IMG/VR virus record: IMGVR_UViG_3300013138_001783
Span: 1 to 31,351 of that record
Origin: a virus
DNA length: 31,351 bases
Reading direction: 5' to 3' (one strand)
The notes below the pieces were generated by a model. It was not told the origin of the DNA, did no database searches, and saw only the letters and a list, made by a program, of their open reading frames with translations. The translations under genes were made by a program, and so were the position numbers. Shown piece after piece: positions 1,786 to 20,527 of the stretch. Position 1 is the first letter of the stretch; each line of letters starts with the position of its first letter.

Positions 1786-4587
1786 TTAGTTCCATATTCT
1801 CAGACGCGCGTCCGCTAAGAGCGCATCATAGGTCATCGTGTCAGCCGCATCACTCCCGGTGCGCTGAAGGCATATATGGATAGTGTCATAACCTGTGGGC
1901 CAGGTAAATGACAGGGTTGATTTGCAGGTATAGTTATTGGCTCTACCGGCGGTAACCACAGTGGACATGGTCACTGATTGGTAATCTATTGAGTTGTCCT
2001 TAAAACCTTTTATCCCAAGAGTCCAACGACAATTGCCGGCTCCGCCTATCCAAATAATATCCAGATAAACCGTCCTTCCATCCCAACCTTTAGGGCTTGA
2101 AAAGGACATTTCGACATAATCAGCATAGCCATCCCTGAATTTAAGCCAGTTTATATACCAATTTACCGGAGCGCCGAGTTGACCTGAATACCACATGCCG
2201 TTTCCGATTCCAATTTCATCTACAAACAGGTTGTGCGGTACATTGTGATCGTCTCTGGCCCATAGAGCGCCGCTACGATAGTATTCTCGAATGTAACCCG
2301 CAGTTGGCGCAGCCGGGTCTGCGGATCGTTCTTTGTATTGCACAAACTCATCTACTGTCAGCGCGCCATCGAATATCTCGGTATAGCTCTCTGCTCCAGT
2401 TTGCAAACCGATTCCGCCCTCCAAAGCCAGTTTTGCAAACGTAACTGTTGGCGAGTTGGGAGTATAAATATTCAGCCGATCTACAGTCAGGATTGCTTTC
2501 GCGCCATTGGCGGGTTCGGCTTTTAAGTCGAATGCGCCAGAATAGTTCAGCGTAGCTACGTTTAGGGACAGGTATGCGCCATTTATACTGACCGAGTTTA
2601 CCTGCCATGTGGCAAGCGATCCGGCTGGCGCGTAAGCCGAAGGTTGGATGGTGTGATTCGCAACAAAGTCACGAGTATTGTTATAGACATAGATCCCATA
2701 TTGATAATCTTGCGCGGCAGTATCGTAAAACTTAAGCTGGTTAGCCCAAGGCCCCGTACTGACTGTGGTTGTTTTGACGCTCAAACCGCCCGCATCGAGC
2801 CACACATCGCCCGCGCCGCCGACCAACTTGCCGGTAGTATCTGCATACCATTGCTCTACCCCAGCCGAATAACCGCTTATTTTCCCTATCCCGCCGCTAT
2901 TGAAGACCTTCAATCCTGTTGTCGGAGACGCGAATGTTCCAGTTCCCTGGTAAATACCTCCACTGGTCCCAATTGACAAAATTCCATCTATTGACAACGC
3001 GCCCAGGTATCCTGCGTCGGCCTTGATCTCACCCCGAACTACCAATCCGAGCGTTGTATTGTAGTAAAGATATTTGTTATCGGCATAGCTCCCCATTGCC
3101 ATCCCGTAACCAGTAAGGCCGGCCGATTGCCAACTCGCCAGATCGCCGATGCGCACATTCTCAACATTCGAAGCATAAGACGTTGTTTGCGTTTTTATGC
3201 TGATGCGTGGTGAGTTATAAGCATCAAATTCGATTCTCCCATCCCCATTGTGACCTAACACAACAAAGATCGTATCTTTCGCCCAGGCATAGCCTACGTT
3301 TGAGTGATCCAGCCCGCGCGTGACATTGTAGGTTGTTCCAGTCACAAGCGTCAAAGACTTTATGTATTCGTGGTTCAGAACTCCGCTCGCGTCGCGCGCT
3401 CGAATGAGAATCCAGTCATTTGGCGTAACCGTTTTTCCAAAGTTGATCGTTGATTGAGATGCTGTAACCGCCTCTGGTAGTTGACCTTGATCGTGAGCAA
3501 TCATCGTCCAACCGCCGATCACGCCAATACTCTCCTCTGCCTGCACAACAGAACCGCACATGACCAGCTTTCCACCATCCCACGCCAGGAAGTCTGTTGA
3601 TGGGTCGCCAACGTGCATCTTTGTAAGGCTATTTTCGATACCGGCCCAAAATCCTGATCCGGATAAGTAACCTGTTGCACTACCAAGCGACAAGGATGGA
3701 ATTGAGGCATCGAGAAGCACCTGGTTATTTCCTACTCCACCTGCGCCGAAAGTTGAGTCGCCAAGAACCCAGCCGCCAATCGAGCCAGAAGTCGCTGTAA
3801 TCATACCGGTAATACTCAGGTCTTCGCCATCCCAACTGAGATTATTGCCCGCTGGATCGCCAATATATACCTTCCATGTGTCGTCGTCAGGATCCAGACC
3901 TAACCAAATGCCACTCGCGCCATATTCGACTGCCTGTATTCCGATAAAGGGGGCGTTTCCGGATTTCAGTACAATATCGCCGTCGGCGGCGCTCAAACTA
4001 TCTACCCCCAATTCCCAACCGCCAATGCTTCCCGATGTGCCAAATACCGAACCTTCTTTCTTCACAGAGAATGGGGCCCGTTCGGGATCTTCATTGCCAG
4101 CATAGAGAAAATAATCGAACTCCGGGTCGGAGTTGAGTTGGATATACGAGGTATCCTCTCCGGAAATTAGCGCATATGGCTCTATGTCCCATCCGCCTAT
4201 TGTTCCGGTCGGATTTGCCAAAGAGGTGGCGGCTTTCCTGGCCTCCCCCAATACCGCATTGTAGGAGGTATCCATCAGGTCTTTTACGTCCTGAATGTGG
4301 GTGTACCAACCATTGTGTTGAATATCGTCTACGGTCTTATCCACCTTACCTGGGGCAATGGCGACCGGACGGCGGCTATTCCACCAGGAGATTTGAACTG
4401 TATCGCCCAGGCTGAGCGTGTCAATATCGCCAATGATCTCAACATGCCTCACGATGGTTGGCGAATTGCCGACCTGAATATCAATCGTCGTCATATTGAT
4501 CGCCCGGACGGTGGCGTACTGCGGGCGCTTATCTTTGGCGTTCTTGACTACCCGCTTTGCAATTCTGGCGTTATCAAACGTTCTCAT
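1786..4587 (-). CDS. Receptor-binding tail fibre/tip protein with IGGW repeats
   Basis: A 933-residue protein. Residues about 20-80 look like a small beta-barrel (OB-like) attachment domain. Four IGGW motifs follow, with Trp at 133, 191, 273 and 360; each opens a module of the form G-x-IGGW...W.G...I.G typical of long phage fibre/tip proteins. The central part (about 430-720) is beta-rich and low in charge, and the last ~125 residues form a Trp/Tyr-rich beta-sandwich-like domain that is the best candidate for surface or carbohydrate binding. The gene overlaps the hub gene by 14 bases and has a GGAGG ribosome site. The product is probably a trimeric fibre on the hub, recognising the host. Structural role is likely; the receptor cannot be inferred. 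Confidence 0.8.
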   Translation of the reverse strand: MRTFDNARIAKRVVKNAKDKRPQYATVRAINMTTIDIQVGNSPTIVRHVEIIGDIDTLSLGDTVQISWWNSRRPVAIAPGKVDKTVDDIQHNGWYTHIQDVKDLMDTSYNAVLGEARKAATSLANPTGTIGGWDIEPYALISGEDTSYIQLNSDPEFDYFLYAGNEDPERAPFSVKKEGSVFGTSGSIGGWELGVDSLSAADGDIVLKSGNAPFIGIQAVEYGASGIWLGLDPDDDTWKVYIGDPAGNNLSWDGEDLSITGMITATSGSIGGWVLGDSTFGAGGVGNNQVLLDASIPSLSLGSATGYLSGSGFWAGIENSLTKMHVGDPSTDFLAWDGGKLVMCGSVVQAEESIGVIGGWTMIAHDQGQLPEAVTASQSTINFGKTVTPNDWILIRARDASGVLNHEYIKSLTLVTGTTYNVTRGLDHSNVGYAWAKDTIFVVLGHNGDGRIEFDAYNSPRISIKTQTTSYASNVENVRIGDLASWQSAGLTGYGMAMGSYADNKYLYYNTTLGLVVRGEIKADAGYLGALSIDGILSIGTSGGIYQGTGTFASPTTGLKVFNSGGIGKISGYSAGVEQWYADTTGKLVGGAGDVWLDAGGLSVKTTTVSTGPWANQLKFYDTAAQDYQYGIYVYNNTRDFVANHTIQPSAYAPAGSLATWQVNSVSINGAYLSLNVATLNYSGAFDLKAEPANGAKAILTVDRLNIYTPNSPTVTFAKLALEGGIGLQTGAESYTEIFDGALTVDEFVQYKERSADPAAPTAGYIREYYRSGALWARDDHNVPHNLFVDEIGIGNGMWYSGQLGAPVNWYINWLKFRDGYADYVEMSFSSPKGWDGRTVYLDIIWIGGAGNCRWTLGIKGFKDNSIDYQSVTMSTVVTAGRANNYTCKSTLSFTWPTGYDTIHICLQRTGSDAADTMTYDALLADARLRIWN

Positions 4588-7500
4588 AACCCGTCGCCTC
4601 CATATCTATTGCCGGGGCGTTCCCGCCGGTTATCCCAACCGATATTTCGTCAATCACCATCGGTTTTACGCTTGTGTTGCCGCTGGAATCGACAATTTGG
4701 GCATAGACAATATCGTTCGGCTCGATACGCGGGTCTAACGCGCCGGCAATCGAACATGCTCGCATTTTCCCGATCATATCGGAAAAGATATTGCCGATTT
4801 CGACTTCCATTTCCTTACGGGTGTCAAGCCGTTCTGAGTTTCCGTAATAGAAAACATTGCCATATTCTTTGAGCAGGTCCACATTGAGCGATTCGACGAT
4901 ATCAATGCCATCGAGCATGATCCTGGAAGCGATGTTTGAGTCGGTGATCTGGCTGGAAACGGCAACCCCATTCAGGTAAGGGGCGCTGTCCGAGTTGACT
5001 TTTGCCCTGTTCCTGAAACAACGCAGTTTCCCATCCTGGCTGTCTTGAAAGAAAACCCGTTTTTCTTTGAGCAGCTCAGAGAGCAGCGATAATCCGGATA
5101 CGCCCATATCCAGAATAAAGTTGTCCACCCGATCATCCAGCTCAGACCAGTCTATATTGATCGAAAGTCCATTTGCGTTGTAGGCGTAGAGCCGGGCGTA
5201 TCCCTCCAGGGCATTGTCAACCGGCGAACCCAACGCGTCTCGTAAGGTAAACGACATGACCGATCTTCCGCATAACCAGACGGAGACGATATTCTCCTGC
5301 ACCGAAAATACCAGTTCGGCGTTATTCGGCAGCGGCAGTGGCAACGGCAACGATTCTCTGATGGTAAAGGTGGTTGTTCCAGTTTGCCTCAGATACTGGA
5401 TTTTGTATGTTCCAGAATCGTTCAGCAACCGGAAGATGAGCGACTCTGCCCCATTTCCATGCACAGAAAGTCCAAACGCCGAACCAGAGGCGAGCGCGCT
5501 GACCCACATTTTTACAACATGGTTATTCTTGAATACTCGCCGAGACGAGAACCAGTGTCCGGTAGAATTGACTGCTATCGGCCCATCCATTACGGTTTTG
5601 TATGCTTCCGTCTTGGAGTCGTTAGTGTAGGCAAGCGCATTTTCGCAAGCGACCTCAACCCCGGCCTTGCCGGCGATCTCGGCGATCATATCTTCCAGCC
5701 GCATATCCATTTCGTTGGAAAAATACTCAAACACATTCGATTCGGGAGAATAATCGGTGTATACCGAGAAAGCTTCGCCAAAGGCGTGCGTGACCGCAGT
5801 CGTGCCGTCTACGCCGCGATTGACTTCGATTGTCGGGCAAATGGATATGACCGAAGTGGAGTCCAGCAAGCTGCCAATGTCCGTGTCAATCGAGAACACT
5901 GAAGTATTGTCATTCGCGAGTCCACGATACGCCACGATGCGCGCCTTTTGCCCTCTCCCCTTCCCTTCTGTAATCACAAACGTTGATCCGATATATTTTG
6001 TCGGATCAGTCCACGTCCGGTTGATGTATATCTTGAAGTCAGCCCCTGGCATCGACTCTGTATATACAAGTTTGATGTCCATGCCCGTTCTATTTGCGTT
6101 TTTGATTGACTGATTGCCTAAGTTGAAAGATGATAAGTAATTGAGATATGCATACCAATCATACGGTTGATCGTTCCCACCAATTATTATTGTCGAAAGG
6201 TGACAATCGTGATTGATATAGTTGTTAGCCTCGGAAAACATGATCGAATTGGCGACTGTTCCACGATAAATATAAGTATCAGCCTGACCTTCTGTATCAG
6301 CTTGCCCGCCCTGAAAATACAGTCTGTAAGACGTAAATACGATAGCGTATGTTGCTCCGGCCTCCAACTGCTTCAGATCATTTGTGAAATCAACCAATAT
6401 CCATGGAAGATTGGCGTCCGCAGTCGCTTGATTCCAGGTACTCGCGCCAGCGATTTTGGGTATGCTGACAACTTTGCTTGAGATAAGTCCATTGGCAATA
6501 ACATTGTACGATACCCTGGAATAATCCGCGTTGTTCATGTGCGGCTCGCCATTTGAGGCATGCGTGCCGGAAAGAGGGCAATAAAACTCTTGTTCCGGGA
6601 ATGTCCCTGGATATAGCATGTTTTGCGCGGTTTGGTCGCCCGAACCACCAGGCGCCCACATATATGTTTGCGCTGGAGTAATTTTATACAGTTGAACGCC
6701 AACCTTGTAATAATTATCAAAACCGGGTTTCGCCCGATTGGCGTCCACAACAAATCCGCGAAACTGGAATTGTTGGAGAATGTAATTTTTGTCCGGACGG
6801 AAGTAGTAAGCTATGTTGCTTATTCCGTGTATATTGACTGTTGCGCAAGTTTTGTGAAATTGCTGTGTACCAGGATTAGATGGATCTGTTCCTGGACATT
6901 GAAAAATATCGCGATATGCGCCCATTGCAGTTGGCTGAGACGGCTGCACAGTTACAGTGTTGAGCGTTCCGATTCCAAGACCAGAGACCGTCTCTGTTCC
7001 AACGATATGCACAACTGTCATGTGCTCTGCGCCAACGCCTAAAACCAATCCTGGTTCAACATCTTCAATCGTACTCAGTTGGACAAAACGATCTGACAGC
7101 GAGCAACCGTAGAATAAGCCATTGCCTGTGCCAACGGACATCGAGATTCCGCCACGCCCGACATAATCTTCATGCGGCCAGGGGCTGACGAATATATCGC
7201 CAACGTCAGGATAGTCAATATACGTCCAATCCACAGCAGAATCGAGCCGGTGATAAATCCTAAAAATCCCATCGTGATAGGTCGCCATCATCCAGAACGG
7301 ATTGGTGGTTTGTAAAATTGGGGTAGTTGGGTCCCAATAGTTCATTTCCCCGGCATTATTTCTGCCTATCTTCATGTAATTACTATCTGAGCGTAACAAC
7401 AGATGGAAGTAATGATGCCCATAGTCGGTATCCCGGATTTCGCTGGCTGTTTTCCCAAGCCTGGTCGCCGCTTCTGCCTTTGTCTCTCTCCAATAATTGA

Positions 7501-9199
7501 ATATCAAGCCAACGCTGGTGGCGGTTACGCCAACCGGAAGCGTCGGCATCGTGAATCTGGCGCGCGCCAGCCCCCCGCGCGAGGCGCGCTCTGCCGAGAA
7601 TAATATGCCTTCGGTGTTCAGCGATCCGATTTTTACTTTGGTCTCATCCCCAAACCAGACGCCTGAGCCGCGCACTAACCCACTGAGCGCATTGGCCGTC
7701 GCGCCGACAATGGACAACTGGTTGGATTGCTTTGTTTGACTCCAGTAATCATACGCGCAGTCCGGATTCCATTGCCCTATGCGCTTGGAGGCGAAGGAAC
7801 TCAGGGAGGCGTCTATCGTTTTTCCATTCGGCAATACCTTATTTATGTTTGTCCCCAACTCGAATACATTGTATGGGACGGCGGAGGTCTGTAAAACGCC
7901 ATTCACATATGCCCCATAAAGCAGTTCAAGATCGGCGCGACTGCCCGCGCCAATATAGCCCGGTACTTGCGTGTCGCTCTTGAGCGAGACGGCCATCGAG
8001 TAGAACCCATTGCTCCTTTCGCCTATATTTGCCAGGGCGATTTCGTTTGTGACCTGAAACTTCTTGTTCGGATGGTCATACCCGACCAGCAAGGTGGAAT
8101 CCGCCACACTCACGCCACACAGCCTGACGTAATAGAGTTTGTTGTTGTACGAGAACATTTTCCCGCCAGGGCAACGCATATTATTTTCGTTTTCGGTTGG
8201 CAGGCAAATGAACATATCGCGAGAAAAGGACCAGTGTTCGGGCCCAAAGCTGTAAACGTGCATCGAGCCGCCATAAGTACGGCTGAGAACGCCCGTGGCG
8301 CATAATTTCCCATTGATAAGCGTCACCCCGCCCAATTTGAAAAACACATCATTGTCAACAACGTCCAATGGAATGATTGATTGAATACTGCTGGCGATTT
8401 TGTTTTTAACGGTGATGTACATCGCCCGCCTCGAATCGTATTCGGGGTAAAAGAGATAATCCACTCCGTTGTAAACCACATTGTCAAAGTTGTATTGCAC
8501 CGGTGGAATTTCGGTAACCGGGTCGGGCTGCAAAAACAGATAACTCAGGCCACAGTCCTGGGCAGTCAGGAGCGAACCGTAAGCGCTGGTAATGCTCGTA
8601 TCAATGTATCCAATTTCACTGAATGGATATTCCTGATAAGGAGAACTACTCCCCCTCCGAAACCGCATGTTGGCGTAGAAAACAGTGGCCGACACCGGCA
8701 TGATGGCCGTCCATGTCGGATTCATCTGCCCCTGGTAATCAAACATCTGCCCATCATTATCCCAGGTGGACGTAGCCGGGTTGAACCTGATTCTGCGGAT
8801 ATTCCGATTGGCTGTATCGTGGTAGAAAAGATACCCATAGTTGGCGTCAACGTACAGGCCTGGCATGGAGCCGTCAACCGAATCAATCCCAATGTCCAGC
8901 CAGTCGCCAGTCCACGCCGCGCCTGGGTCGGCCTGATAGTGATAAACCAGATGTTTTGTCTCTCCCGGCGCAGTTTTCATTCCGCATATTCTCAAAATAC
9001 CGCCGGATGGAAACTGTTTTAATGTATACGTCACATTTACATCAGCGTAAACATTGTATGCAATGCCGCCGATGGTAACGGAAGTAGAACACGCCGTCTC
9101 CTCAAAAATAAGCCGTGTGTCTCTAAAAGTGAGCCGCGAACCAATAAGCCGGCCAGATGCCAATGATCTGCTGAGCGCCGTGTTGTCTACAGCCCTCAT
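4574..9199 (-). CDS. Tail hub / tip protein with lectin-like insertions
   Basis: A 1,541-residue tail-tip protein. The N-terminal ~60 residues and the C-terminal ~370 (from about 1163, MDMRLEDMIAEIAGKAGVEV, to the end) resemble the two halves of a gp27-type tail hub; the C-terminus has the usual pattern of a binding domain with a final barrel (EPNDIVYAQI...MVIDEISV). Between them lie about 1,000 residues of beta-rich sequence: a possible propeller (about 80-450), a ConA/LamG-like sandwich at about 520-690 (YWR...YGHHYFHLLLRSD) and further sheet domains. A second sandwich-like segment sits inside the hub half at about 1210-1340. It starts with an ATGA overlap to the upstream gene and has a poor Shine-Dalgarno, so it is probably translationally coupled. 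Propeller and lectin assignments are inferred from residue patterns only. Confidence 0.75.
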   Translation of the reverse strand: MRAVDNTALSRSLASGRLIGSRLTFRDTRLIFEETACSTSVTIGGIAYNVYADVNVTYTLKQFPSGGILRICGMKTAPGETKHLVYHYQADPGAAWTGDWLDIGIDSVDGSMPGLYVDANYGYLFYHDTANRNIRRIRFNPATSTWDNDGQMFDYQGQMNPTWTAIMPVSATVFYANMRFRRGSSSPYQEYPFSEIGYIDTSITSAYGSLLTAQDCGLSYLFLQPDPVTEIPPVQYNFDNVVYNGVDYLFYPEYDSRRAMYITVKNKIASSIQSIIPLDVVDNDVFFKLGGVTLINGKLCATGVLSRTYGGSMHVYSFGPEHWSFSRDMFICLPTENENNMRCPGGKMFSYNNKLYYVRLCGVSVADSTLLVGYDHPNKKFQVTNEIALANIGERSNGFYSMAVSLKSDTQVPGYIGAGSRADLELLYGAYVNGVLQTSAVPYNVFELGTNINKVLPNGKTIDASLSSFASKRIGQWNPDCAYDYWSQTKQSNQLSIVGATANALSGLVRGSGVWFGDETKVKIGSLNTEGILFSAERASRGGLARARFTMPTLPVGVTATSVGLIFNYWRETKAEAATRLGKTASEIRDTDYGHHYFHLLLRSDSNYMKIGRNNAGEMNYWDPTTPILQTTNPFWMMATYHDGIFRIYHRLDSAVDWTYIDYPDVGDIFVSPWPHEDYVGRGGISMSVGTGNGLFYGCSLSDRFVQLSTIEDVEPGLVLGVGAEHMTVVHIVGTETVSGLGIGTLNTVTVQPSQPTAMGAYRDIFQCPGTDPSNPGTQQFHKTCATVNIHGISNIAYYFRPDKNYILQQFQFRGFVVDANRAKPGFDNYYKVGVQLYKITPAQTYMWAPGGSGDQTAQNMLYPGTFPEQEFYCPLSGTHASNGEPHMNNADYSRVSYNVIANGLISSKVVSIPKIAGASTWNQATADANLPWILVDFTNDLKQLEAGATYAIVFTSYRLYFQGGQADTEGQADTYIYRGTVANSIMFSEANNYINHDCHLSTIIIGGNDQPYDWYAYLNYLSSFNLGNQSIKNANRTGMDIKLVYTESMPGADFKIYINRTWTDPTKYIGSTFVITEGKGRGQKARIVAYRGLANDNTSVFSIDTDIGSLLDSTSVISICPTIEVNRGVDGTTAVTHAFGEAFSVYTDYSPESNVFEYFSNEMDMRLEDMIAEIAGKAGVEVACENALAYTNDSKTEAYKTVMDGPIAVNSTGHWFSSRRVFKNNHVVKMWVSALASGSAFGLSVHGNGAESLIFRLLNDSGTYKIQYLRQTGTTTFTIRESLPLPLPLPNNAELVFSVQENIVSVWLCGRSVMSFTLRDALGSPVDNALEGYARLYAYNANGLSINIDWSELDDRVDNFILDMGVSGLSLLSELLKEKRVFFQDSQDGKLRCFRNRAKVNSDSAPYLNGVAVSSQITDSNIASRIMLDGIDIVESLNVDLLKEYGNVFYYGNSERLDTRKEMEVEIGNIFSDMIGKMRACSIAGALDPRIEPNDIVYAQIVDSSGNTSVKPMVIDEISVGITGGNAPAIDMEATGYENV

Positions 9200-9589: not shown

Positions 9590-12500
9590 TTATCCTAAAT
9601 TCAACTCCCAGTCTGCCGGCGGCGGGTCGCCGATCCCGCCAGAAGTCGTTGTGCTGCCAGCAGACGCCATGGCCGTATGAATCAAATCAATCAAAGCATA
9701 GACAAACGACGCCGATCCCTGAGCCGTGGCTAATGCATCCGCCAGATTCTTGATCAGGTAGGCTGCCGGAGCAAAACGAGCCAGGGATTCTTGTTTTGCC
9801 GCCAGATCGCTAAACGCATTCGTCGTGTCTCGGACCAGTTTCTCGTAATCCTGTTGCAGCTTGATATTCTCGCCCTGCAACGCCAGTTGCTTCTGTTGTA
9901 TCGCCAGTTGCGCATCCTGGTTTTTATTTCGCAGGTCAATCAGTTCGCCCTCAATCTTATATTGTTCCTGATAAGCCTCGAGCGATTTTTGAAGCTGTTC
10001 CTGTTCTACGGCAAAACTATCTTCGCGTTGTTTTTGGGAGAGTTCAAATTGATCCTGGTCTAATTTGTACAACTCCATACGCTGCGTCTTGGACAACTCG
10101 AATTGCTGCTCGTCCAACGCATCGCTCTCAATGCGGTGCGCCTTTGACAGTTCAAACGCCTCAAGGTCGAGTTGTTGCAGTTTCTTGCGATTGGACTCCT
10201 GAAGGTCAAACGACTTATTTTCCAGCTCAATAGATTTTTCCAGGAACTGCTTTTCCTTCTCGTACTGCTCGTCCTGGCGTTTCCACAATTCACTCTGACG
10301 GTCTCTGCCCTTTTCGATCTGGGTATCCTCAATGCCCTGCGATAACTCCATGCGGTCTTTCTGCTTAATGAGTTGCTTGCGCTGACGCCCATGAGAATAG
10401 CGGATCGCCTCGTTGAGGTCTTCCTCCTGCCACTGGAAATTCAGATTGCGCATTTGATCCTGGTACTGGTAATCTTCGCGCGTCCACGATCGCTGCAATA
10501 ACGCGGTATCCTGATTGAAACCAAGCGACCAGGTTTGTTTCTGCTGGCTCAGAGATTTGGACTGCTGTTGAATCGCAGACATTTGATCTGCCTGACCAAA
10601 ACTGAGCGCCATTTTCTGGTAATTGATGTTTTCTATATTGGCCGAGTACGCCTGGTTCTGCTGCATACGCGTCCAGCTCATTCCCTCTTGCATTTCGGAA
10701 TAAGCATTGCTCAACGTCATGCGCTGTTGCGTGAGGTTTTCTTGCGCGATGCTGTAGTCGTTGCTCCTGTTCAAGCGCGCGCCTTGATAGTCGAAGTTAC
10801 GGATTTGGTTGGCGTAACTGAGACCTCTCAACTGCGCATCCAGCGGACGAGTAGCGGCGATATAAGACAGATCCAAATTCAAGTTCTGCTGCTGCAATCC
10901 GTAAGCAGCCCATTGGTTGTTGTTCTGCTGAGTCTGGGTCCAGATTTGAGCCTGGCGCAATCCGCCCGCGTCAAACGCGCTCGACAGCCCGGCGCTCAAG
11001 CCAATCGGAATATTGGCGGAAACGCCCCAGGCGCTCATCAGAGCTTTATATGCCGTTCCGTTGGTCTGCAATATCGGGTTCATTGACCGGTCGTAGAAAC
11101 GAGACGACGCGTCGCTCATGTTCAGCGACTTCAAAACGTCAGGCTGATTCCACGACGCCCAGGAACGTGCGCCCAGGTCGCCAGAAGCGATCTGATAGGC
11201 TAAACCCACCTGCTGATTCGATAGCCCGGAGAACTTACTGGACAAAGACGCCATAACTTGCGCGGCAGTATTCGGCGCAAGACCAGCCGACAACATCGGA
11301 TTCAGGAACTGAGAGAACATCTCAATGCGCGGCGCGTTCATTCCCCCATACGCACCCATCAAGCCTTGCATCGCGCCGCCCATCGCGCCAGGCGTCATTC
11401 CATAAGCCATTAGCGGAGCAAGCATCCCCTGAGTGACCGCATTCAACGCCGGTGCGCCGTATCTGCGAGACATATCCCCCAGAGATACCGAAAGATTGTA
11501 TGGCATAGTCGGATTTCCGCTGTAAGCGGTATACAAATCGGCGGCATTGGAGTAAGCCGAAATTTCAGCGCTGGCGTCTAACCCATAGCGCCTGCCGATC
11601 TCGCCCGCCCCAGCCATGCCCAGGCCAATTCTCGATGACAACTGAGATGCGAATGCGCCGCCGCCCGCTGTTTGCAGCCAATCCTGTTTCTTCTGGATTG
11701 TTTTCGTCCAGTCAACATATTGTTTACGCCCCATCGCTTCAGGAATATCGGGCAATTCGCCGAATGGCAAACCCAATGCCGTAGCCTGCTCCTGATACGA
11801 ATACCATCCTTTGACGATGCCATAGGCGCGTTCGTTCAGCCGGCCATAATAGGCATAGACGCTTTCCGGAGTAGACCTGGAGGACATTTCAGCCAGCGGC
11901 CCAAGCCCAGCCCATCGCTCGGCGCCCGATTGCATCTGTTCTATCCAGGCTGGCGACTTCCCAACCAGGTTGGAGAATAAATCGCCAAATGCCGCTGTTT
12001 GCCCCGCTATACCCATTCCCGTAGCGGCCGCCATCCGTCGGGCGGTTTCGACGAGCGGAACGCCCTGGGCCATCTGTCCGGACGCGATATCAAACGCCCC
12101 GCCTTTGGTTTTTGATAAATTGAATCCGTATCTGGCTTCGAGTCCAAGCAACTGACCCATTGTCTCAACTGGAGCGCCCATTTGTTGCGACAAAGCCTGC
12201 GCATAACCCGCGAGTCGCTTCGGCAACTCCCCGCCAGACGCCAGGTCGGTATATAACCTTCCGGCATCGGCGCTCTTTTCAAAGTCAACCTGAGCGGCTG
12301 TCTCCTCGCGCACCGATTTACTCAGATAGAAAGGGATTGTTCCGGTGCTGAAATCGAGCGTTTGCCCGATCCTGGCCCATGCGGCTTTCGTCATGTTTAC
12401 CAGACTGGGTTTGTTGAGAAAATCACGCTCAGTTTGCGTTCCAAGAGCAATCGGTTCTCCGAATAAGGCTCCCATTGTCCTCGATCTCGCCGTGTCATAT

Positions 12501-15500
12501 TGACCCTGGCGAATCCGCGTTGCAATGCCGACTGCCGTTTGCTCTGGATTTGCCGCTGCGCCTACAGCCTGCGAAACGCCGGAATATGCCGCTGCGCCAA
12601 CTGCGACATATGGAGCGGCCGCGGCAAGTCCGCTTGCCAATCCACCGGACGCAATCGATGACAACCACATAGACAGCGCGAAACCGGTCGCGCCGGCTTT
12701 GCCCATCTCCAGCGCGCCCACCAGACCCGGCGCGCTTTGAAGCGCGCCAGCCATCAGTCGTTTCTCGGCGGCCGCGCCCCCACCGCCATATACCGCGATC
12801 CGCCTGGCAATCAGTTCATCAGGAGTGATTGCGACCTGACCGGCGCCCAATACAGACCCAATGCCGGCGTTTGCCTGGCCTCGGAGATTGAGTGTCTGCT
12901 GATACCCATAGCCAGCCGTATCCTGGATCGCGCCGAGCATTGATCCAATGTACATCAGGCCAAAACCGCCGAGCGCGCGTCTAGCCATACCGCCGATGCC
13001 CGCCTCGGATTTCTGGTATCTGCGAATGGCGCCGGCTTTGGCCTCGTTGAACGTTGCAGTTTCATATTCCTCCCCCAGGCCGCGCAAGTTGACGCCAAAC
13101 ATCTGTTCCTCAGGGGATAGCTCGCCTCTGGCTTCCCGCGCTGCCAGTTCACCAAGTTTAACGCCCAACCTTTGGCGCACGGCGGCAGCCTGCTCGACGG
13201 TCGCTGGTTGCCTGCTCTCGCCTAGAGCAGTAGACATCCTTGCGCCAACATCAATAATGTCGTTCTGCTCTTTGGTGACGTTCTTTTGACGTTCCAGGTC
13301 CGCCACCGATTCGGTGTTGCGAATCCCTTTTTCCAATTCCTTGTTGAGCGAACGCATCGCCTCCGAAAACTTTTCAAGGTTTGCAGCGCCAACCTGAACG
13401 GCATTGCCAGGCAGCGGGGTAGTCTCTTTTGGCGCGGCGGTGTGGATGCCGGCTGCGCCCAGGAAACTGGATACCCCATAAACATTCTGGAGCATCTCGC
13501 CAATAGGCCCGATGTCTCCATTGACTTCGTTTCCGAGAATAGCGTCAACGCCCGCCGCCATGCTGGGGTCTTCGGTATTGATCCCTAGATTGCGCAATTG
13601 GTCGCGGCTTTTTGCGACGCCGGCGACTTTGCGATAGGCCGTGCCATATTTTCTGATTTCTCCAAATAATGGCCGGAGCGCCTTCTCAGTCATGGCGGGA
13701 TTGGCGGCATACGCAGAGGCAACGGCTAAACCGATATTCCCCATCGGAATTTGATCGGAACCAAGAGTGTCTATCCCAAGCACGGGAGCGACCGCCGCGC
13801 CAATGCGTGTTTGCAGAGTCTGGAAACCAGCCTGACCTGTCCCTTCAGATAATGCATTGACCAGACGCAAAGCGGCTTCCGCTTCAACGCGCGCCTTATC
13901 CGGATTGCCACGCGCGCCGCCCTGGATGGTGGCGTGAACGGTCATACTCTCGAAGAACTGTTTCATCTGCTCGAATGAAAAACCGCCATTGCCTCCACCT
14001 TCAGAACGCGTAGGGGGAACTGGCGGGATTGGCGGAATGATCGGCGGCGCGCCAGCTCCACCTGATTGGGGCTGCGGTTGCGGTACATTGACATGCACCC
14101 GCGCGTTGCCACGCGGCGGCGTTGCCGCGCGGCGAGATAGCGCATCGCCGCCAACCGGCTGAGCTTCGCCCAGGTAAGAGCGCCAGGGAGACACATCCAC
14201 GCCGCGCATTTGGGCTGCATTCAGCAAAGGCGCCGCCCAGGCTCTCAGCATGGGCCTGTTCTTTGGGACTTGGGCGATCTCTTGAATGGCCGGGGCAATT
14301 TGCGTTCTTTGGATCTCGCGCCAATCGCCCTGCTCAGGCGCTTCATAGGCAAAGGCGTTGGAGGCCGGATTATTGCCTGTCGCTGCTCTCACCAGATAGG
14401 TTTGAATGTTCCCGCCTTGGATAGCGTTAAAAATATCCTCATCCGGCGCAAGCGCCACGTTTCCCTGCGCATCGCGGTTGTTGAAAGCGATCCATTCTCT
14501 CAAGCTGGTCTGCTGCTCAGGCGTCCCATTCGCCATTGTCGTCATGCCAACCGCGTTGATCGCCGCCTGCACCTGGCCGTAATAGGCTTGATCCTTACCC
14601 TGCACCATCTTGTGTTCAATCAGCCCAAGCGTACCCGTGTCTGGGTCCCAACTCAACCAGTCCGGTTTTGCGCGCAGGTTGCCGCGATGCTCTGTATCGC
14701 CACCCTGGTAGTCAAATTTCAAGGATAGCTTTTGGCTTGCGTGTTGAAAGCGGGCATTGGGAGCGCCTGGAAGATTTTGTTTCCAGCCGGCCTCGAAAGC
14801 GACGCCCTGCGCGCCAGTCGGACCTTCGAAGGGGTAGATATCTCTCAAGAAATCGTGGCCGGCGCCTTCCGGACCGGAGGCGTTGCGCATCCCCAACATG
14901 CCACCGACGATCTTTTCTTTAGCGTTGTATTTATTGCCGCCAATGTAAGCCGCCAGATCGCCAGCCCAAACTACCGGAGCGCCAGCCAGGTTCTTGTCCA
15001 TCGCCGAGGTAAACGCTATTTCCGACTTACGCACCGCGTACTGGACCAGCTTTTCTTCAAGGTCGGGGGTTGGCGACGTGGCAATCCGGTTGAATACTTC
15101 ATCGCCCAACTGCAACTTCATACTTGCCGCGAGCGACTGCATAGCGGATGGCATAGCCCTGAGCGCAGTCTCGGTCAACGGTTCGCTCGAACCGTCAGAC
15201 CGGACGCCCAACGTCTCGCGCATCCTGGCGATCCCGTGAACCAGATCCATCGCCCGGTTGCTGGTACCGCGCTGCGTCTGGTATCCGAACATCATATTGG
15301 TCAAGTAGATGTACGGGTCATTGTAGATTTGACTCAACGTCCTCAGCCCGCCGCGCCAGGGCAGGCTGATCTCATTTTGCCCGTTGATATACTCGGCGTA
15401 CTTCTCCGGATCGCCGGTCAGGGTGCGATTGATGCCCTGCGCCATCAGCGCCGTGTAGTAGGGCGATGCCTCAGAGACGACGCCCTTTGCCATGCCGGGC

Positions 15501-18500
15501 AGTTGGACATCGCCCATAAGTACGCTGGCGCGCGTGACCTTGCCCCATTGATTGGGGTCGCTGCTCTGCAATTCCCTCAGCTTGCCAAAAACCTGTAAAT
15601 TACTTGCGCCAGCCTGCGCGCTGGGGGCAAACATATAAGCGAGCGTTTCATCGCGGATCGTCCCTTCATTGGCAAAGGCAGTGGCTACGGTCCTCAGCGC
15701 CACCGCGCCGCTGCGCTCATTGCCGGCGCGCATCGGGTCAGCCCAATCCATGCTGTCGTCGTCAATGCCCTTGAGCGAAAAGCCGAACCGGTATTCCCCG
15801 CCTTTCTTGAACACACGCGCGGTGTTGGTCGCGTTGACCAGGGCGATCTTCTCATCCAGCGAAAGGTCAATGGCTTTCTGGTAGAAAGTTTGCAGGGGAT
15901 CAAAAATATTCTGTTCGTATGCTTGCTGGGTAAAGCCAAGCGCCGCAGACGACGCCTCCAGCAACCGCTGCGCCTGATAGACCAGGCCCATGTTGCCCTT
16001 AGAACTGGTATGCGACTTCAGCGCATTAAGATAACCTTCCAACGGTAGATGCTGTCCGTTGGTACCTTTCCCAAGCGCGCCTGCATCGCCGCGATGATCT
16101 GTATCGCCGCCCATTGCCTCCAGATAACCAGCCACCGTAGAGCGCATAATATGATAGGCGTCCGTTTCATTGCCAAATACCTGCCGGAGCGCGCCAAAGG
16201 TGTCTGTTGTCCCGCCCATCGCATGCCCCAGGGCGATTTGCGCAGCTTTATAAGCGGCGTACTGGCGTTGATTATCGGCGGTGAGGATCGGCTTGCCGCT
16301 TCTATCCAGGGCGAAGAAATGCTGTAACGGGTCCCGATCTAGGTCGCCAACGCCGATCGTCGAGAATACAGAAGAAACGCCAGCGTCCATCCAGCCCGAT
16401 TCGAGCGCGCGGATGATCTCCGGACTATAGCCGCGCGCTGCCATTTGATGGGAGGTAATCGCCATAGAGGCCATGACGCCAAACTCGCGCGACACATCCG
16501 GTTGGCGGAACATCATCCCCGGCAGGAACGCATCCGCCAGCTTGTGTTGAGCGGACATCAAGCCAGTAGCCCATTGATCCAGCCGCTTTGCCATTCGGCC
16601 AGCAACCTGCGGCTGCCCATATTGGGGATAATAGGTCTGGAGCAGGTAGCCTTCAAGCTGCTCTTTATTCATCTGGCTTGCGGCGTAAAGATCGTTGATC
16701 GAATAACCGCCGGTCAAGGACTTCATCAGTCTTTGCGCTTGCCTGTTCGAGCCAACCGCCTCGCCGAGCGCGCGCTGCATCTCGCGCTGCGGCAAATAGA
16801 TCTCGCCGTAATTCAACCCGCCAAGCTCTGTGTAACGCTGGAAGGTCATGCCAGGAGCGTCAAAACCGAATACGTCTTTGGCGATGCCCTTGCCTTCGAG
16901 CATGTTGCTCATCATCTTCCGAAAATTGGCTACCTCTCCGATTGCCTGACTTGGGGGAATTTCACTCGCCTCAGCCAGCGTACTGCGCTCAAACGCCGAC
17001 AGCCAGGAGAGCGACACCTTGGCGTTGCTCTCGCCGGTTGCAGGATCGTATGTATCAATCCCCAACATGGTATTCACGCCGGGGAGAAATGCCTTCATCC
17101 CGGAGTACAGCAGCATTTTATTGGGGTCGTAACGAGCGCCAAAGACACTGGCCAACGCGGCGTTGGCGCGCGTCATCCGATCTGCGTCGTTCAGTTCGTT
17201 GAGCGGCGAAACGAGTTTCGCGGACCGTTCCAGCCGTTCACGCCTGTTGGCATCCTCAATCTCCGGCATGGAGGCGAAATCGGTTTCGACGCCATCGCGA
17301 TAGGCGGCGTAAACGCGCGCTGCGTCCTCGCTGGAAATTCTCAGCGCGTCGGATGGGTCGGGCGTTACAAAGCCGGTCCTGGCGCGCGCTTCCATATCGT
17401 AGGTCTCCCACATCTTGACGCGCGCCCAGGCTTGTTTTGCTGGGCTGGATGCGCCGGTCACAGAGGGGGAGCCAACGGTCAGTCCCATTCTCTGAGCCAA
17501 CTCTGGGTATTGTTGAGATAACGACGCGATCTGGCGGTAGTTCAACATACCCCAACCGGTCATTTCGGGGGCGATCTGCGTGCCGAGCGCGGTCAACAGA
17601 CCCTGGTTCACGAAATAGTCAAATTTATAAGCGGTTTGATTTTTGGCGGTTTGGACAGGGGTAAACCGAAACAGCGCGTTATAAGCCGCATCGAGCGAAT
17701 CCAGACTGCGGAAGGTCTGCGCGCCGGCGCGCACCGTCCGGCCCTCTGACAGGGTGTTGGCAAGCATAGCGCGCTGGCTGGACTGGAACTCCATCATCTC
17801 GCTTTGCGAGACCGTGTTCCCATAAATCCACTGCGGAGTATCCACATAGGCTACCCCAAACTTCTGCAACGTTTCCAGCTTGTTTTTATCGCCTGCAAAT
17901 GTGCCTAATAACGCCTCGCTGAAATTCAGCCAGTTCAGCTCGCTCTCGCTGCCGGTTTTGAGACGCGAATATTCCCGTGTGATTTCGTTCAGATCGGTCA
18001 TCTGGCCGTTCTGGTATCTGCTCAGGATAAAGCTCGAAAGATCCTGACCGACCTGGCCGCTGAGACGCGCGGCCATTTGCGCCTGCATTGCGGAGGATTG
18101 CATGCCGAAGTTGGACATAAACGCCATCGGCAGCGATTTGACTTCGGAGCTGGTCTGGTGAACCCGCACCAGGTCGCCGCCCAGATCAACAGTCATCTGG
18201 CCGCCCATGATGGGGGTGAAGCCGGCTTTGAAACCAACGTCCTTCGGCGAGCCGCCAACTTGGGACAGATACTCAATTTGCAGTTCAGGGACTTCTCTGC
18301 CGGCGGTAGTGACGTTGATTCCAAGCGATTTACTCAGTTGTTGGGCGATATTCCGAGCGCTGATCGCTCCCTCAGCCTGATAAGCGATAAACTTCCCGCC
18401 CTCTACGCCGGGGATATAGAACGGCGCGATATTAAGCGTAGCGCCGCTGAGAGTCATGTTGCGCGCGGCGCGCGCCATTCCGATGGGCTGCGCCTCGCCG

Positions 18501-19807
18501 CCAATGACGACCTCTCCCAGAGAATGGAAGCCCCGGCCAGCCTGGACGTTTGTGCCGCCAGCTACATTCAGCCCGGAAAAGTCCGCCTTGCGCAGCGCGC
18601 CGGCGTTGGCGGCATTGGACAGCGGGATACTGGCGATCTGAGGCACAGCAAAGCCCGCGATCTCGTTGTACATCGAAGTATCCACCATAGAAGCGCCAGA
18701 ACCAAACGGCATGGCGGCTGGAATAAACGTCAGCCCAGCCAGAACGCGCTTGGCTGGCGCGTCGCCGCGCCCTTCAGCGTCTGCGCGCTGCTGCCAGGGG
18801 AAATACATTTGCATATTGACGTATGGATTGAAGCCTGGGCCGGCCTGCCACACACCGCCGGACTTTTGAAGGTCGAGATTGAACGCGCCGGGCGACAGGA
18901 CTTGCCCATTCCGCCCGATCAGCAGAGCTTCTTCCCGTTTTTCGCCTACGGCAGCCTGACCGTGCTTGTACTCCTTGGCGCCGACAACCCAGCGCCCATC
19001 CACCAGCTTGACCCCAACGGAGTTATACGATGTTCGCTCCACATAGTTGATGCCATCCTGCGAATCGATCACGGTTTCGCGGACATCGAACGGACCGTGG
19101 ATCAGGCGGGGTAGGGAGGCGCTCGGCTTAAGCGCATAGCCGAAGTATTCAAAACCCAATCTACCCTGCGCAAGACTTTGCTGGATCAGGCCAAAATACG
19201 AGGCGCGCTGGTTGATATCGCGCGGCAGCATCACAGGCACCGACGAACTGACCGCTCGTTCAAGCGATTGGCCGGCATAATAGGGCGTTCCAACCATACC
19301 GCCCACAATCGGAGCGCCGTCGCTCTCACTGTCGTACCTGTGCGAGGCAATTCTTTCAGTACCTTCGCTCAGGATGGAAGTGATCGGTCTGTATTCTGTC
19401 CCGCTTAATGAAGTAACCAGTGCGCGCGCCAATAAGGCTGTGGGGGCAGTTGTTTTAAAACCAGTGACCTTCTCAGCAGTCAAGGTCGGTTCAACCTGAC
19501 CGGTGATCGAGGCTTTATGCGCGCCGCCATGATAGAAAACGTCAATCGCATTGCCGACTCGGCCAAGCTGCTCGCCCATGCGCATGTCAATGACTTCATT
19601 GAAGCCAGTCCGGGTGTTCTTTATTGCCAGGCGCGTGAAATCAACTAACCCGCTGTGCTGGCTGAACTGAACGCTGTATTCACTCCCAACCGCGTTTGGG
19701 CCCAGACCCGACTCGCTGCCGAGTTCCAGCATCAAATCTTCGATAAATGTCCTGGTCTGCGCTTCAGTTGGGTTGAACCCTGTCCGAAATATGGGCCTGG
19801 CTGGCAT
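9590..19807 (-). CDS. Giant tape measure protein with RNAP-like and nuclease-like N-terminal regions
   Basis: A 3,405-residue protein, the largest in the window, in the position of the tape measure between chaperones and tail tip. Residues ~190-1550 resemble a divergent two-barrel RNA polymerase; ~1670-1770 carry a PD-(D/E)XK nuclease pattern; 1906-1943 are a Pro/Gly linker; ~2270-2295 and ~2373-2410 are hydrophobic segments of the kind that insert in membranes during DNA ejection; from ~2960 the chain is Gln-rich and helical, with five 18-residue repeats at 3195-3284; a last hydrophobic patch lies near 3345-3385. Length in such proteins sets tail length, although part of the N-terminus may be cargo rather than ruler. 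The ATG has a GGAGAGG ribosome site; the start overlaps the preceding ORF by 44 bases. Tape measure role is strong; the enzymatic domains are inferences. Confidence 0.9.
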   Translation of the reverse strand: MPARPIFRTGFNPTEAQTRTFIEDLMLELGSESGLGPNAVGSEYSVQFSQHSGLVDFTRLAIKNTRTGFNEVIDMRMGEQLGRVGNAIDVFYHGGAHKASITGQVEPTLTAEKVTGFKTTAPTALLARALVTSLSGTEYRPITSILSEGTERIASHRYDSESDGAPIVGGMVGTPYYAGQSLERAVSSSVPVMLPRDINQRASYFGLIQQSLAQGRLGFEYFGYALKPSASLPRLIHGPFDVRETVIDSQDGINYVERTSYNSVGVKLVDGRWVVGAKEYKHGQAAVGEKREEALLIGRNGQVLSPGAFNLDLQKSGGVWQAGPGFNPYVNMQMYFPWQQRADAEGRGDAPAKRVLAGLTFIPAAMPFGSGASMVDTSMYNEIAGFAVPQIASIPLSNAANAGALRKADFSGLNVAGGTNVQAGRGFHSLGEVVIGGEAQPIGMARAARNMTLSGATLNIAPFYIPGVEGGKFIAYQAEGAISARNIAQQLSKSLGINVTTAGREVPELQIEYLSQVGGSPKDVGFKAGFTPIMGGQMTVDLGGDLVRVHQTSSEVKSLPMAFMSNFGMQSSAMQAQMAARLSGQVGQDLSSFILSRYQNGQMTDLNEITREYSRLKTGSESELNWLNFSEALLGTFAGDKNKLETLQKFGVAYVDTPQWIYGNTVSQSEMMEFQSSQRAMLANTLSEGRTVRAGAQTFRSLDSLDAAYNALFRFTPVQTAKNQTAYKFDYFVNQGLLTALGTQIAPEMTGWGMLNYRQIASLSQQYPELAQRMGLTVGSPSVTGASSPAKQAWARVKMWETYDMEARARTGFVTPDPSDALRISSEDAARVYAAYRDGVETDFASMPEIEDANRRERLERSAKLVSPLNELNDADRMTRANAALASVFGARYDPNKMLLYSGMKAFLPGVNTMLGIDTYDPATGESNAKVSLSWLSAFERSTLAEASEIPPSQAIGEVANFRKMMSNMLEGKGIAKDVFGFDAPGMTFQRYTELGGLNYGEIYLPQREMQRALGEAVGSNRQAQRLMKSLTGGYSINDLYAASQMNKEQLEGYLLQTYYPQYGQPQVAGRMAKRLDQWATGLMSAQHKLADAFLPGMMFRQPDVSREFGVMASMAITSHQMAARGYSPEIIRALESGWMDAGVSSVFSTIGVGDLDRDPLQHFFALDRSGKPILTADNQRQYAAYKAAQIALGHAMGGTTDTFGALRQVFGNETDAYHIMRSTVAGYLEAMGGDTDHRGDAGALGKGTNGQHLPLEGYLNALKSHTSSKGNMGLVYQAQRLLEASSAALGFTQQAYEQNIFDPLQTFYQKAIDLSLDEKIALVNATNTARVFKKGGEYRFGFSLKGIDDDSMDWADPMRAGNERSGAVALRTVATAFANEGTIRDETLAYMFAPSAQAGASNLQVFGKLRELQSSDPNQWGKVTRASVLMGDVQLPGMAKGVVSEASPYYTALMAQGINRTLTGDPEKYAEYINGQNEISLPWRGGLRTLSQIYNDPYIYLTNMMFGYQTQRGTSNRAMDLVHGIARMRETLGVRSDGSSEPLTETALRAMPSAMQSLAASMKLQLGDEVFNRIATSPTPDLEEKLVQYAVRKSEIAFTSAMDKNLAGAPVVWAGDLAAYIGGNKYNAKEKIVGGMLGMRNASGPEGAGHDFLRDIYPFEGPTGAQGVAFEAGWKQNLPGAPNARFQHASQKLSLKFDYQGGDTEHRGNLRAKPDWLSWDPDTGTLGLIEHKMVQGKDQAYYGQVQAAINAVGMTTMANGTPEQQTSLREWIAFNNRDAQGNVALAPDEDIFNAIQGGNIQTYLVRAATGNNPASNAFAYEAPEQGDWREIQRTQIAPAIQEIAQVPKNRPMLRAWAAPLLNAAQMRGVDVSPWRSYLGEAQPVGGDALSRRAATPPRGNARVHVNVPQPQPQSGGAGAPPIIPPIPPVPPTRSEGGGNGGFSFEQMKQFFESMTVHATIQGGARGNPDKARVEAEAALRLVNALSEGTGQAGFQTLQTRIGAAVAPVLGIDTLGSDQIPMGNIGLAVASAYAANPAMTEKALRPLFGEIRKYGTAYRKVAGVAKSRDQLRNLGINTEDPSMAAGVDAILGNEVNGDIGPIGEMLQNVYGVSSFLGAAGIHTAAPKETTPLPGNAVQVGAANLEKFSEAMRSLNKELEKGIRNTESVADLERQKNVTKEQNDIIDVGARMSTALGESRQPATVEQAAAVRQRLGVKLGELAAREARGELSPEEQMFGVNLRGLGEEYETATFNEAKAGAIRRYQKSEAGIGGMARRALGGFGLMYIGSMLGAIQDTAGYGYQQTLNLRGQANAGIGSVLGAGQVAITPDELIARRIAVYGGGGAAAEKRLMAGALQSAPGLVGALEMGKAGATGFALSMWLSSIASGGLASGLAAAAPYVAVGAAAYSGVSQAVGAAANPEQTAVGIATRIRQGQYDTARSRTMGALFGEPIALGTQTERDFLNKPSLVNMTKAAWARIGQTLDFSTGTIPFYLSKSVREETAAQVDFEKSADAGRLYTDLASGGELPKRLAGYAQALSQQMGAPVETMGQLLGLEARYGFNLSKTKGGAFDIASGQMAQGVPLVETARRMAAATGMGIAGQTAAFGDLFSNLVGKSPAWIEQMQSGAERWAGLGPLAEMSSRSTPESVYAYYGRLNERAYGIVKGWYSYQEQATALGLPFGELPDIPEAMGRKQYVDWTKTIQKKQDWLQTAGGGAFASQLSSRIGLGMAGAGEIGRRYGLDASAEISAYSNAADLYTAYSGNPTMPYNLSVSLGDMSRRYGAPALNAVTQGMLAPLMAYGMTPGAMGGAMQGLMGAYGGMNAPRIEMFSQFLNPMLSAGLAPNTAAQVMASLSSKFSGLSNQQVGLAYQIASGDLGARSWASWNQPDVLKSLNMSDASSRFYDRSMNPILQTNGTAYKALMSAWGVSANIPIGLSAGLSSAFDAGGLRQAQIWTQTQQNNNQWAAYGLQQQNLNLDLSYIAATRPLDAQLRGLSYANQIRNFDYQGARLNRSNDYSIAQENLTQQRMTLSNAYSEMQEGMSWTRMQQNQAYSANIENINYQKMALSFGQADQMSAIQQQSKSLSQQKQTWSLGFNQDTALLQRSWTREDYQYQDQMRNLNFQWQEEDLNEAIRYSHGRQRKQLIKQKDRMELSQGIEDTQIEKGRDRQSELWKRQDEQYEKEKQFLEKSIELENKSFDLQESNRKKLQQLDLEAFELSKAHRIESDALDEQQFELSKTQRMELYKLDQDQFELSQKQREDSFAVEQEQLQKSLEAYQEQYKIEGELIDLRNKNQDAQLAIQQKQLALQGENIKLQQDYEKLVRDTTNAFSDLAAKQESLARFAPAAYLIKNLADALATAQGSASFVYALIDLIHTAMASAGSTTTSGGIGDPPPADWELNLG
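9956..10225 (-). repeat. Five 18-residue tandem repeats coding for a straight coiled coil
   Basis: Residues 3195-3284 of the tape measure consist of five consecutive 18-residue units, each opening with a hydrophobic residue plus an acidic or polar pair; the middle three share LDxxxFELSxxxR. Eighteen residues equal five alpha-helical turns, so the hydrophobic face returns exactly. The unit is repeated at protein level but the DNA has diverged, so duplication was not recent. Confidence 0.8.
14498..14800 (-). other. PD-(D/E)XK nuclease-like domain inside the tape measure
   Basis: Residues about 1670-1770. The core reads P1715-D1716, a beta hairpin with a D-P-D-T-G turn, then I1730-E1731-H1732-K1733, giving PD-x14-ExK. 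It is followed by Y1742-Y1743-x-Q1745-V-Q1747, the helix motif typical of RecB/YqaJ/Cas4-type nucleases, and preceded by a possible helix-1 glutamate in GVAFEAGW. Such nucleases cut DNA with one or two metal ions. All four expected elements are present with sensible spacing, so an active enzyme is possible. Confidence 0.6.
15158..19240 (-). other. RNA polymerase-like region inside the tape measure (hypothesis)
   Basis: Residues about 190-1550. Motifs seen in order and their presumed counterparts in Rpb2/beta and beta': LPRDINQ (194-200; SPRNTYQ-like), MPFGSGASMVDTSMYNEI (366-383; GYNxEDS strand region), KADFSGLNVAGG (407-418; KLDxxGL), IPGVEGGKFIA around K472 (IPxxGDKF, first catalytic Lys), VPELQI (506-511; VPDLIINP), FRQPDVSR (1100-1107; LNRAPTLHR) and GDLDRD (D1155, D1157, D1159; the Mg-binding DxDxD). 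A helix with an RG pair at 1513-1514 (MMFGYQTQRGTS) could be the bridge helix. The second catalytic Lys is not seen: E479 lies near its place. These matches are by eye; the order and spacing are the main argument. Confidence 0.45.
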
Positions 19808-20111
19808 TGCCTCTCCGATTCGCTTCGTTGATTAGCTCAAATCGCTTGCGCTCCTGATCGCAGGCCTCGTACTCCATAAGCCAGATATGAGGCTGATCCA
19901 GCAAGCCGCCAGCGACGAGCGGCAGGCCGGTTGACTTACATTGGTCGTAAAGCCTGAGCGCGTCCGGTTTCTCCGGCGCGCGCTCAGGTTTCAAACCCAT
20001 TGCGATCTCATTCAATGCGCCAAGATATTCGCGGATTTGCTCTCGAAGGCGCCCTAAGCGGATAAAAACGAACTGTTCGCCGGAAAGGCCGCTCACTTGA
20101 CCTCCCGGCAT
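19764..20111 (-). CDS. Tail assembly chaperone, second ORF (T-like)
   Basis: A 115-residue, mostly helical protein in the place of the downstream tail assembly chaperone ORF. It begins 2 bases after the stop of the 137-aa ORF and in the -1 frame relative to it; the frame is open back through that junction, which includes a run of five G. It could therefore be made as a C-terminal extension by -1 frameshifting, as in the lambda G/GT system, or initiated separately using the G-rich run as ribosome site. Chaperones of this kind hold the tape measure soluble while tail tube polymerises around it. The end overlaps the tape measure start by 44 bases. Family identity is inferred from position. Confidence 0.65.
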   Translation of the reverse strand: MPGGQVSGLSGEQFVFIRLGRLREQIREYLGALNEIAMGLKPERAPEKPDALRLYDQCKSTGLPLVAGGLLDQPHIWLMEYEACDQERKRFELINEANRRGNASQAHISDRVQPN

Positions 20112-20113
20112 GG

Positions 20114-20527
20114 CTATTCCCCCTGCGGCATCCAGTCGGGATTCAGTTCGAGAACATGGTCGTGGATTTCAATCGCCACAATCGCCGGGAGTTTGCCCCA
20201 GGAGGCGTTGAATTCCACATCCGACATACCGCGCCAGAACATCGCTTTCCCGTTTTCATCTTCGATGTTCGACTCGATGACCGTCAGCATGGCCTGGATG
20301 CGCATCAGCTCAGGAAAGGAAAAGTGCTGGATGAAGGACACCGATTCGTTGCCCAGCTCATTTTCCTCAATGCGCCGGATAAGCGTAGAGTAAATCTTGG
20401 CGCGCCGTTCGTGATCGCGCTGGGTAGCCTGGCGAATGCGAACCAGCGTGCCTTCTGTGCTGTATTGCCGGTCGGTTCGTTCGAGAAGAAATTCCTGTTC
20501 AACGGGGGCGGTTAGTTTGAGAGCCAT
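20114..20527 (-). CDS. Tail assembly chaperone, first ORF (G-like)
   Basis: A 137-residue protein between the tail tube and tape measure genes. It begins with a short beta segment (MALKLTAPVEQEFLLERTD) followed by charged helices (RIRQATQRDHERRAKIYSTLIRRIEENELG), the usual make-up of G-type or XkdN-like tail assembly chaperones. It would bind the tape measure and recruit tail tube subunits. The start has GGAAGGA about 8 bases upstream. The last codons read CAG GGG GAA TAG and directly precede the next ORF in the -1 frame. Confidence 0.7.
   Translation of the reverse strand: MALKLTAPVEQEFLLERTDRQYSTEGTLVRIRQATQRDHERRAKIYSTLIRRIEENELGNESVSFIQHFSFPELMRIQAMLTVIESNIEDENGKAMFWRGMSDVEFNASWGKLPAIVAIEIHDHVLELNPDWMPQGE

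Follow-up and report, generated by a model that had tools for sequence, protein, structure and literature searches.

The tape measure protein (TMP) encoded in the window probably contains, in its first ~1,550 residues, a single-chain, two-barrel DNA-dependent RNA polymerase (RNAP) that is highly diverged and enters the cell with the DNA. We place the probability of this reading at roughly 0.65. The window is the whole of an IMG/VR virus record (31,351 nt). Its TMP is probably a TMP-fused virion RNAP of a new lineage that is unrelated in sequence to gp96 of the Thermus phage P23-45; the fusion of a polymerase to a tape measure is itself already published (PMC10770324). An initial annotation of this DNA had proposed a two-barrel polymerase module fused to a TMP at positions 15158-19240, which correspond to TMP residues 190-1550. 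The fusion it proposed is probable, but the annotation missed a real precedent in gp96, a proven TMP-fused two-barrel RNAP.

The tape measure gene and its relatives

On the minus strand, the gene order begins with AbiEi-AbiEii, a small ORF, terminase, portal, a scaffold-like ORF, a small ORF and capsid. The capsid gene is followed by connector-like ORFs, a tail protein, two small ORFs, a 3,405-aa ORF and more large ORFs.

9590..19807, minus strand: TMP ORF, 3,405 aa, preceded by the portal, capsid and tail protein (phrog_290) genes and by two small ORFs, with a long helical/hydrophobic C-terminal part

The 3,405-aa ORF is assigned as the TMP because of its position, length and composition. Homologues of 4,015 aa and 3,472 aa occupy the equivalent gene position in relatives. 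The two small ORFs that directly precede the TMP (137 and 115 aa; window 19764-20527) are at the site of frameshifted tail chaperones. After the TMP come ORFs of 1,541 and 933 aa (window 1786-9199), both very large, with no Pfam match and a PHROG match that is weak at most. The AbiEi/AbiEii-type pair adjoins the terminase (window 29526-31351; PADLOC AbiEii E 1.9e-121, AbiEi E 2.3e-68), and its first gene matches Pfam DUF6577. As judged from these matches, the pair is a phage-carried abortive-infection/toxin-antitoxin system.

Three further TMPs of the window family were found, and these are 19-33% identical to the window TMP. The near relative, IMGVR_UViG_3300037851_000519, was found in scans with the TMP and capsid; its TMP of 4,015 aa is 29% identical over residues 33-1760. 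Scans with a portal alignment recovered two distant relatives. IMGVR_UViG_3300038461_000101 (L029/L036) is 88.7 kb long and contains a TMP of 3,472 aa, and IMGVR_UViG_3300031873_000403 (L030) contains a partial TMP. The L029 and L030 TMPs are 36% identical to one another and ~20% identical to the window TMP. Scans for relatives that used TMP, capsid or single-protein patterns returned one record only. No relatives were found in GTDB genomes, and among phages and plasmids there was no TMP relative (one weak match, E=0.3). DNA patterns for GVGDxDxDP recovered only already-known members and chance frames.

A further record, IMGVR_UViG_3300027987_000267 (L034), has a portal that is 45% identical. 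Its largest listed frame (1,035 aa) is below TMP size, and the record has no match to the TMP profile. Because a similar portal is found with neither a TMP-size ORF nor a TMP-profile match, the tail module of this record seems to have been exchanged.

The beta'-like region around the aspartate triad

The conserved features on the beta'-like side of the TMP are as follows.

16283..16840, minus strand: residues 990-1175, candidate beta'-like double-psi barrel (DPBB-A), from a model of the homologous L029 segment whose Foldseek and VIA-align matches are mostly or all RNAP beta'/Rpb1/phage RNAP
16790..16804, minus strand: EIYLP, residues 1002-1006, part of the first-strand block R[YF]x(5)Lx(2-3)E[VIM][WYF]L[PG], conserved in four TMPs
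16499..16510, minus strand: FRQP, residues 1100-1103, RxP motif (RQP, RQP, RYP and RFP in the four TMPs)
16328..16354, minus strand: GVGDLDRDP, residues 1152-1160, the most conserved block of the family in the four-TMP alignment
16331..16345, minus strand: D1155-L-D1157-R-D1159, predicted Mg-binding triad, invariant in four TMPs; model end points place it on E. coli beta' D460/D462/D464

Conservation of the three aspartates in homologues, on which the initial annotation had staked its own claim, was found: GDxDxDP is invariant in all four TMPs. GVGDxDxDP is the most conserved 9-mer, with seven of nine columns invariant; over the whole alignment, 84 of 1,116 gap-free columns are invariant. DxDxD occurs exactly once per TMP, at the same aligned position in all four. 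A single occurrence carries little weight, because a shuffled TMP contains 0.27 DxDxD on average. The FRQPDVSR string, previously read as an RNAP motif, is retained as RxP. The near relative has an identical FRQPD, and RYP and RFP appear in the two distant TMPs once these are aligned. In a global alignment of the pre-triad segment, RxP is 48-55 residues upstream of the first aspartate in all four TMPs. An RxP followed by the aspartate triad is present in gp96, gp64, gp66, YonO and E. coli beta'; the spacing is 35-38 residues in E. coli beta' (NRAP) and gp96 (FRNP). The first-strand block resembles, by eye, the beta' pattern SGRSVI..GPxL...GLP and is at the corresponding place.

The AlphaFold model that bears on this region covers residues 885-1066 of the L029 TMP, the relative's segment and not the window's; the alignment behind it also comprised L030 and parts of the remaining two TMPs. 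The confidence of the model is low (pLDDT 50.5; best blocks 64-76; triad region below 50). In a Foldseek search of 350,542 PDB chains, ranks 1-7 are RNAP largest or beta'-like subunits, with AR9 phage RNAP first. RNAP largest-subunit chains make up most of the first 50, and crAss gp66 is at rank 18. The best E-value is 0.85, and none of the E-values is significant on its own. When the 162 best chains were compared with VIA-align, all 50 listed rows were RNAP (Z 3.6-4.5, with 79-108 residues at 3.4-4.7 A). Residues 34-153 of the model align with E. coli beta' 354-471 and with T. thermophilus beta' 630-750. The model triad (142-146) would then fall on the catalytic aspartates, E. coli beta' 460-464 and T. 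thermophilus beta' 739-743, if the last 11 residues are free of gaps; this register is read from the alignment end points and not from printed residue pairs. As a control, a model of window residues 345-1540 (1,196 aa, four sequences; pLDDT 35) was uninformative and matched unrelated helical proteins, without any RNAP catalytic subunit. The enrichment for one family, together with the register, suggests that the segment around the triad is a beta'-like double-psi barrel. We regard this evidence as real but short of conclusive.

Pfam, PHROGs and PDB sequence searches with the TMP show no similarity to RNAP. These results are uninformative, because the proven RNAPs gp96, gp64, YonO and gp66 likewise have no RNAP match in Pfam. 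Profile comparison by hhalign is not significant (P=0.32 against gp96, and P=0.12 against beta', where seven of 100 shuffles are as good). It also says little, since some true RNAP pairs fail the same comparison and the proven phage RNAPs lack a Pfam RNAP match.

Candidate second barrel and other domains

The proposed beta-like half is less clearly defined, and the roles in the first four lines below are predicted from the four-TMP alignment.

18242..18244, minus strand: K522, invariant lysine, candidate second-barrel (DPBB-B) residue
18137..18151, minus strand: SSEVK, residues 553-557 (E555-x-K557 invariant), candidate second-barrel (DPBB-B) lysine
15866..15904, minus strand: FDPLQTFYQKAID, residues 1302-1314, conserved block, possible bridge-helix region
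15623..15643, minus strand: LAYMFAP, residues 1389-1395, conserved block, possible trigger-loop region
14567..14668, minus strand: KPD(x14)EHK...Q, residues 1714-1747, PD-(D/E)XK nuclease-like motif set; P1715, D1716, E1731, K1733 and Q1747 are identical in the near relative

All motif strings quoted in the initial annotation occur in the 3,405-aa ORF (9590-19807, minus strand) at the residue numbers it gave. Only two of its seven motifs, the triad and RxP, survive comparison with homologues, and the other five are not conserved. LPRDINQ, KADFSGL, IPGVEGGKF and VPELQI, which had been read as RNAP motifs, are not conserved across the four TMPs, and GSGASMVD is conserved only as scattered G/S. 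K472, the proposed catalytic lysine, is not conserved in the four TMPs, nor is KHG, and no conservation can be recognised in the proposed bridge helix (1505-1530). Of the proposed two-barrel module, the beta'-like half (RxP, triad and candidate DPBB-A) is supported by conservation and structure search, and K472 and most of the beta-side motifs fail the comparison with homologues.

The best candidates for second-barrel lysines are K522 and K557 rather than K472. The candidate second barrel has no hhalign match to gp96 or gp64, whereas gp96 and gp64 do match one another. AKxYKHGQAA (277-286), which is like the beta motif KxxxRHGxKG, was rejected as a catalytic lysine motif because it is absent from the two distant TMPs. 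The blocks at 1302-1314 and 1389-1395 are in the order expected for a bridge helix and a trigger loop, a correspondence seen at the level of sequence only.

The PD-(D/E)XK-like motif set is located after the candidate polymerase region. It is not seen in the distant TMP that spans this region, and it has no Pfam match. Near its C-terminus, the TMP of the near relative contains a Hint/intein-like domain (PT-HINT E 6.6e-12, Hint_2; L004:9999-13985, residues ~1073-1199 of the piece). The window TMP ends before this domain. The L036 TMP aligns with the Hint/intein-like region of the near relative (30.6% over about 580 aa).

Known systems, alternative explanations and meaning

P23-45 gp96 is an active, TMP-fused virion two-barrel RNAP with a solved crystal structure (PDB 8H2M, 8H2N; Chaban et al. 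2024, PMC10770324). Its N-terminal part extends RNA, is present in virions within the full-length TMP and binds the left-end, pre-early genes (PMC10770324). Both gp96 and the window protein are siphophage TMPs with an RNAP (predicted in the window) in the N-terminal part and hydrophobic segments in the C-terminal TMP part. Both have one DxDxD in the N-terminal part with FRxP upstream (FRNP...GVDFDGD in gp96 and FRQP...GVGDLDRD in the window). The triad is at 779-783 of 5,002 aa in gp96 and at 1155-1159 of 3,405 aa in the window. The usual G before the last aspartate, present in the DFDGD of gp96, is R/Y in the window family, where P comes after the last aspartate; both departures count against the polymerase reading. 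A metallopeptidase domain is present in gp96, and the PD-(D/E)XK-like motif set in the window TMP. P23-45 also has gp64, whereas among the listed ORFs of the 88.7-kb relative (all of at least 200 aa, plus any of at least 120 aa with DxDxD and an upstream RxP, in a record that may be incomplete) no protein other than the TMP has DxDxD, so no second polymerase of the DxDxD kind is seen among them.

Other two-barrel RNAPs are more distant in organisation. The gp66 of crAss-like phage phi14:2 (PDB 6VR4), which is among the structure matches, is a single-chain virion two-barrel RNAP with a DFDID triad after RIP, but it is a separate virion protein and not a tape measure. The non-virion RNAPs of AR9 and phiKZ both provide VIA-align matches for the barrel, and AR9 is the top Foldseek match; unlike the window candidate, they are multisubunit, made after infection and not fused to a ruler. 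SP-beta YonO is a single-chain two-barrel RNAP whose RSPHLFREHGV resembles the window RQPDVSREFGV by eye. It is not a virion ruler and has no significant profile match to the window TMP. Substantial tblastn matches to gp96 are found only in Thermus phages, and a full-text literature search, judged on titles and abstracts, returned no other polymerase-tape measure fusion.

Three other explanations compete with a virion polymerase. GDxDxDP may belong to an unrelated TMP domain and serve there in metal binding or folding, for example as a calcium loop, with the RNAP resemblance an AlphaFold guess prompted by DxDxD. The low model confidence, Z below 5, E near 1 and the lack of profile-level similarity to RNAP are consistent with this. 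However, the Foldseek and VIA-align matches cluster on one fold family and one position over ~120 residues, including strands far from the triad, and RxP and the first-strand block are conserved as well. We regard this explanation as rather unlikely.

It is distinctly improbable that the segment descends from a two-barrel polymerase, has lost catalysis and now serves the ruler in a structural or DNA-guiding role. In line with such a loss, the sequence outside the triad is poorly conserved overall, KxxxRHGxKG is missing and no second barrel could be recognised. Against it, no block of the alignment is better conserved than the one that holds the three aspartates, a pattern typical of a retained active site and not of a relic. 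A by-eye coincidence in a long protein would account for the five unconserved motifs and is in keeping with the DxDxD frequency of a shuffled TMP, but it does not explain why all four TMPs share an invariant triad and an RxP. As an account of the whole, coincidence is highly improbable: conservation brings it close to refuted for the beta' part, while it stands for the beta-side motifs.

If the TMP is a virion polymerase, D1155, D1157 and D1159 would hold the catalytic Mg2+, and a second barrel around residues 400-570 would supply one or more lysines, of which K557 and K522 are the likeliest. By analogy with P23-45 gp96, the TMP chain would be packed in the tail tube and enter the cell end with the DNA. 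The N-terminal polymerase, at the cell end of the TMP channel, would transcribe the leading end of the genome on arrival, and the C-terminal part would form the DNA channel, as proposed for gp96.

In the literature and phage records searched, as far as titles and abstracts reveal, polymerase-bearing TMPs are confined to P23-45 and its relatives among Thermus phages. If uncultured viruses have a second family, unrelated in sequence, then the polymerase-tape measure fusion is general and the two-barrel polymerases gain a highly diverged branch. Tentatively, and at less than even odds, such TMPs may be a widespread siphophage strategy and not a Thermus oddity, with the window representing an independent or very anciently diverged lineage that has a D-x-D-[R/Y]-D-P active site and a ruler that may also carry a nuclease domain. 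If so, the ruler would deliver both transcription and DNA-processing activities. One conserved DxDxD with an RxP in a giant TMP would offer a way to find more such polymerases.
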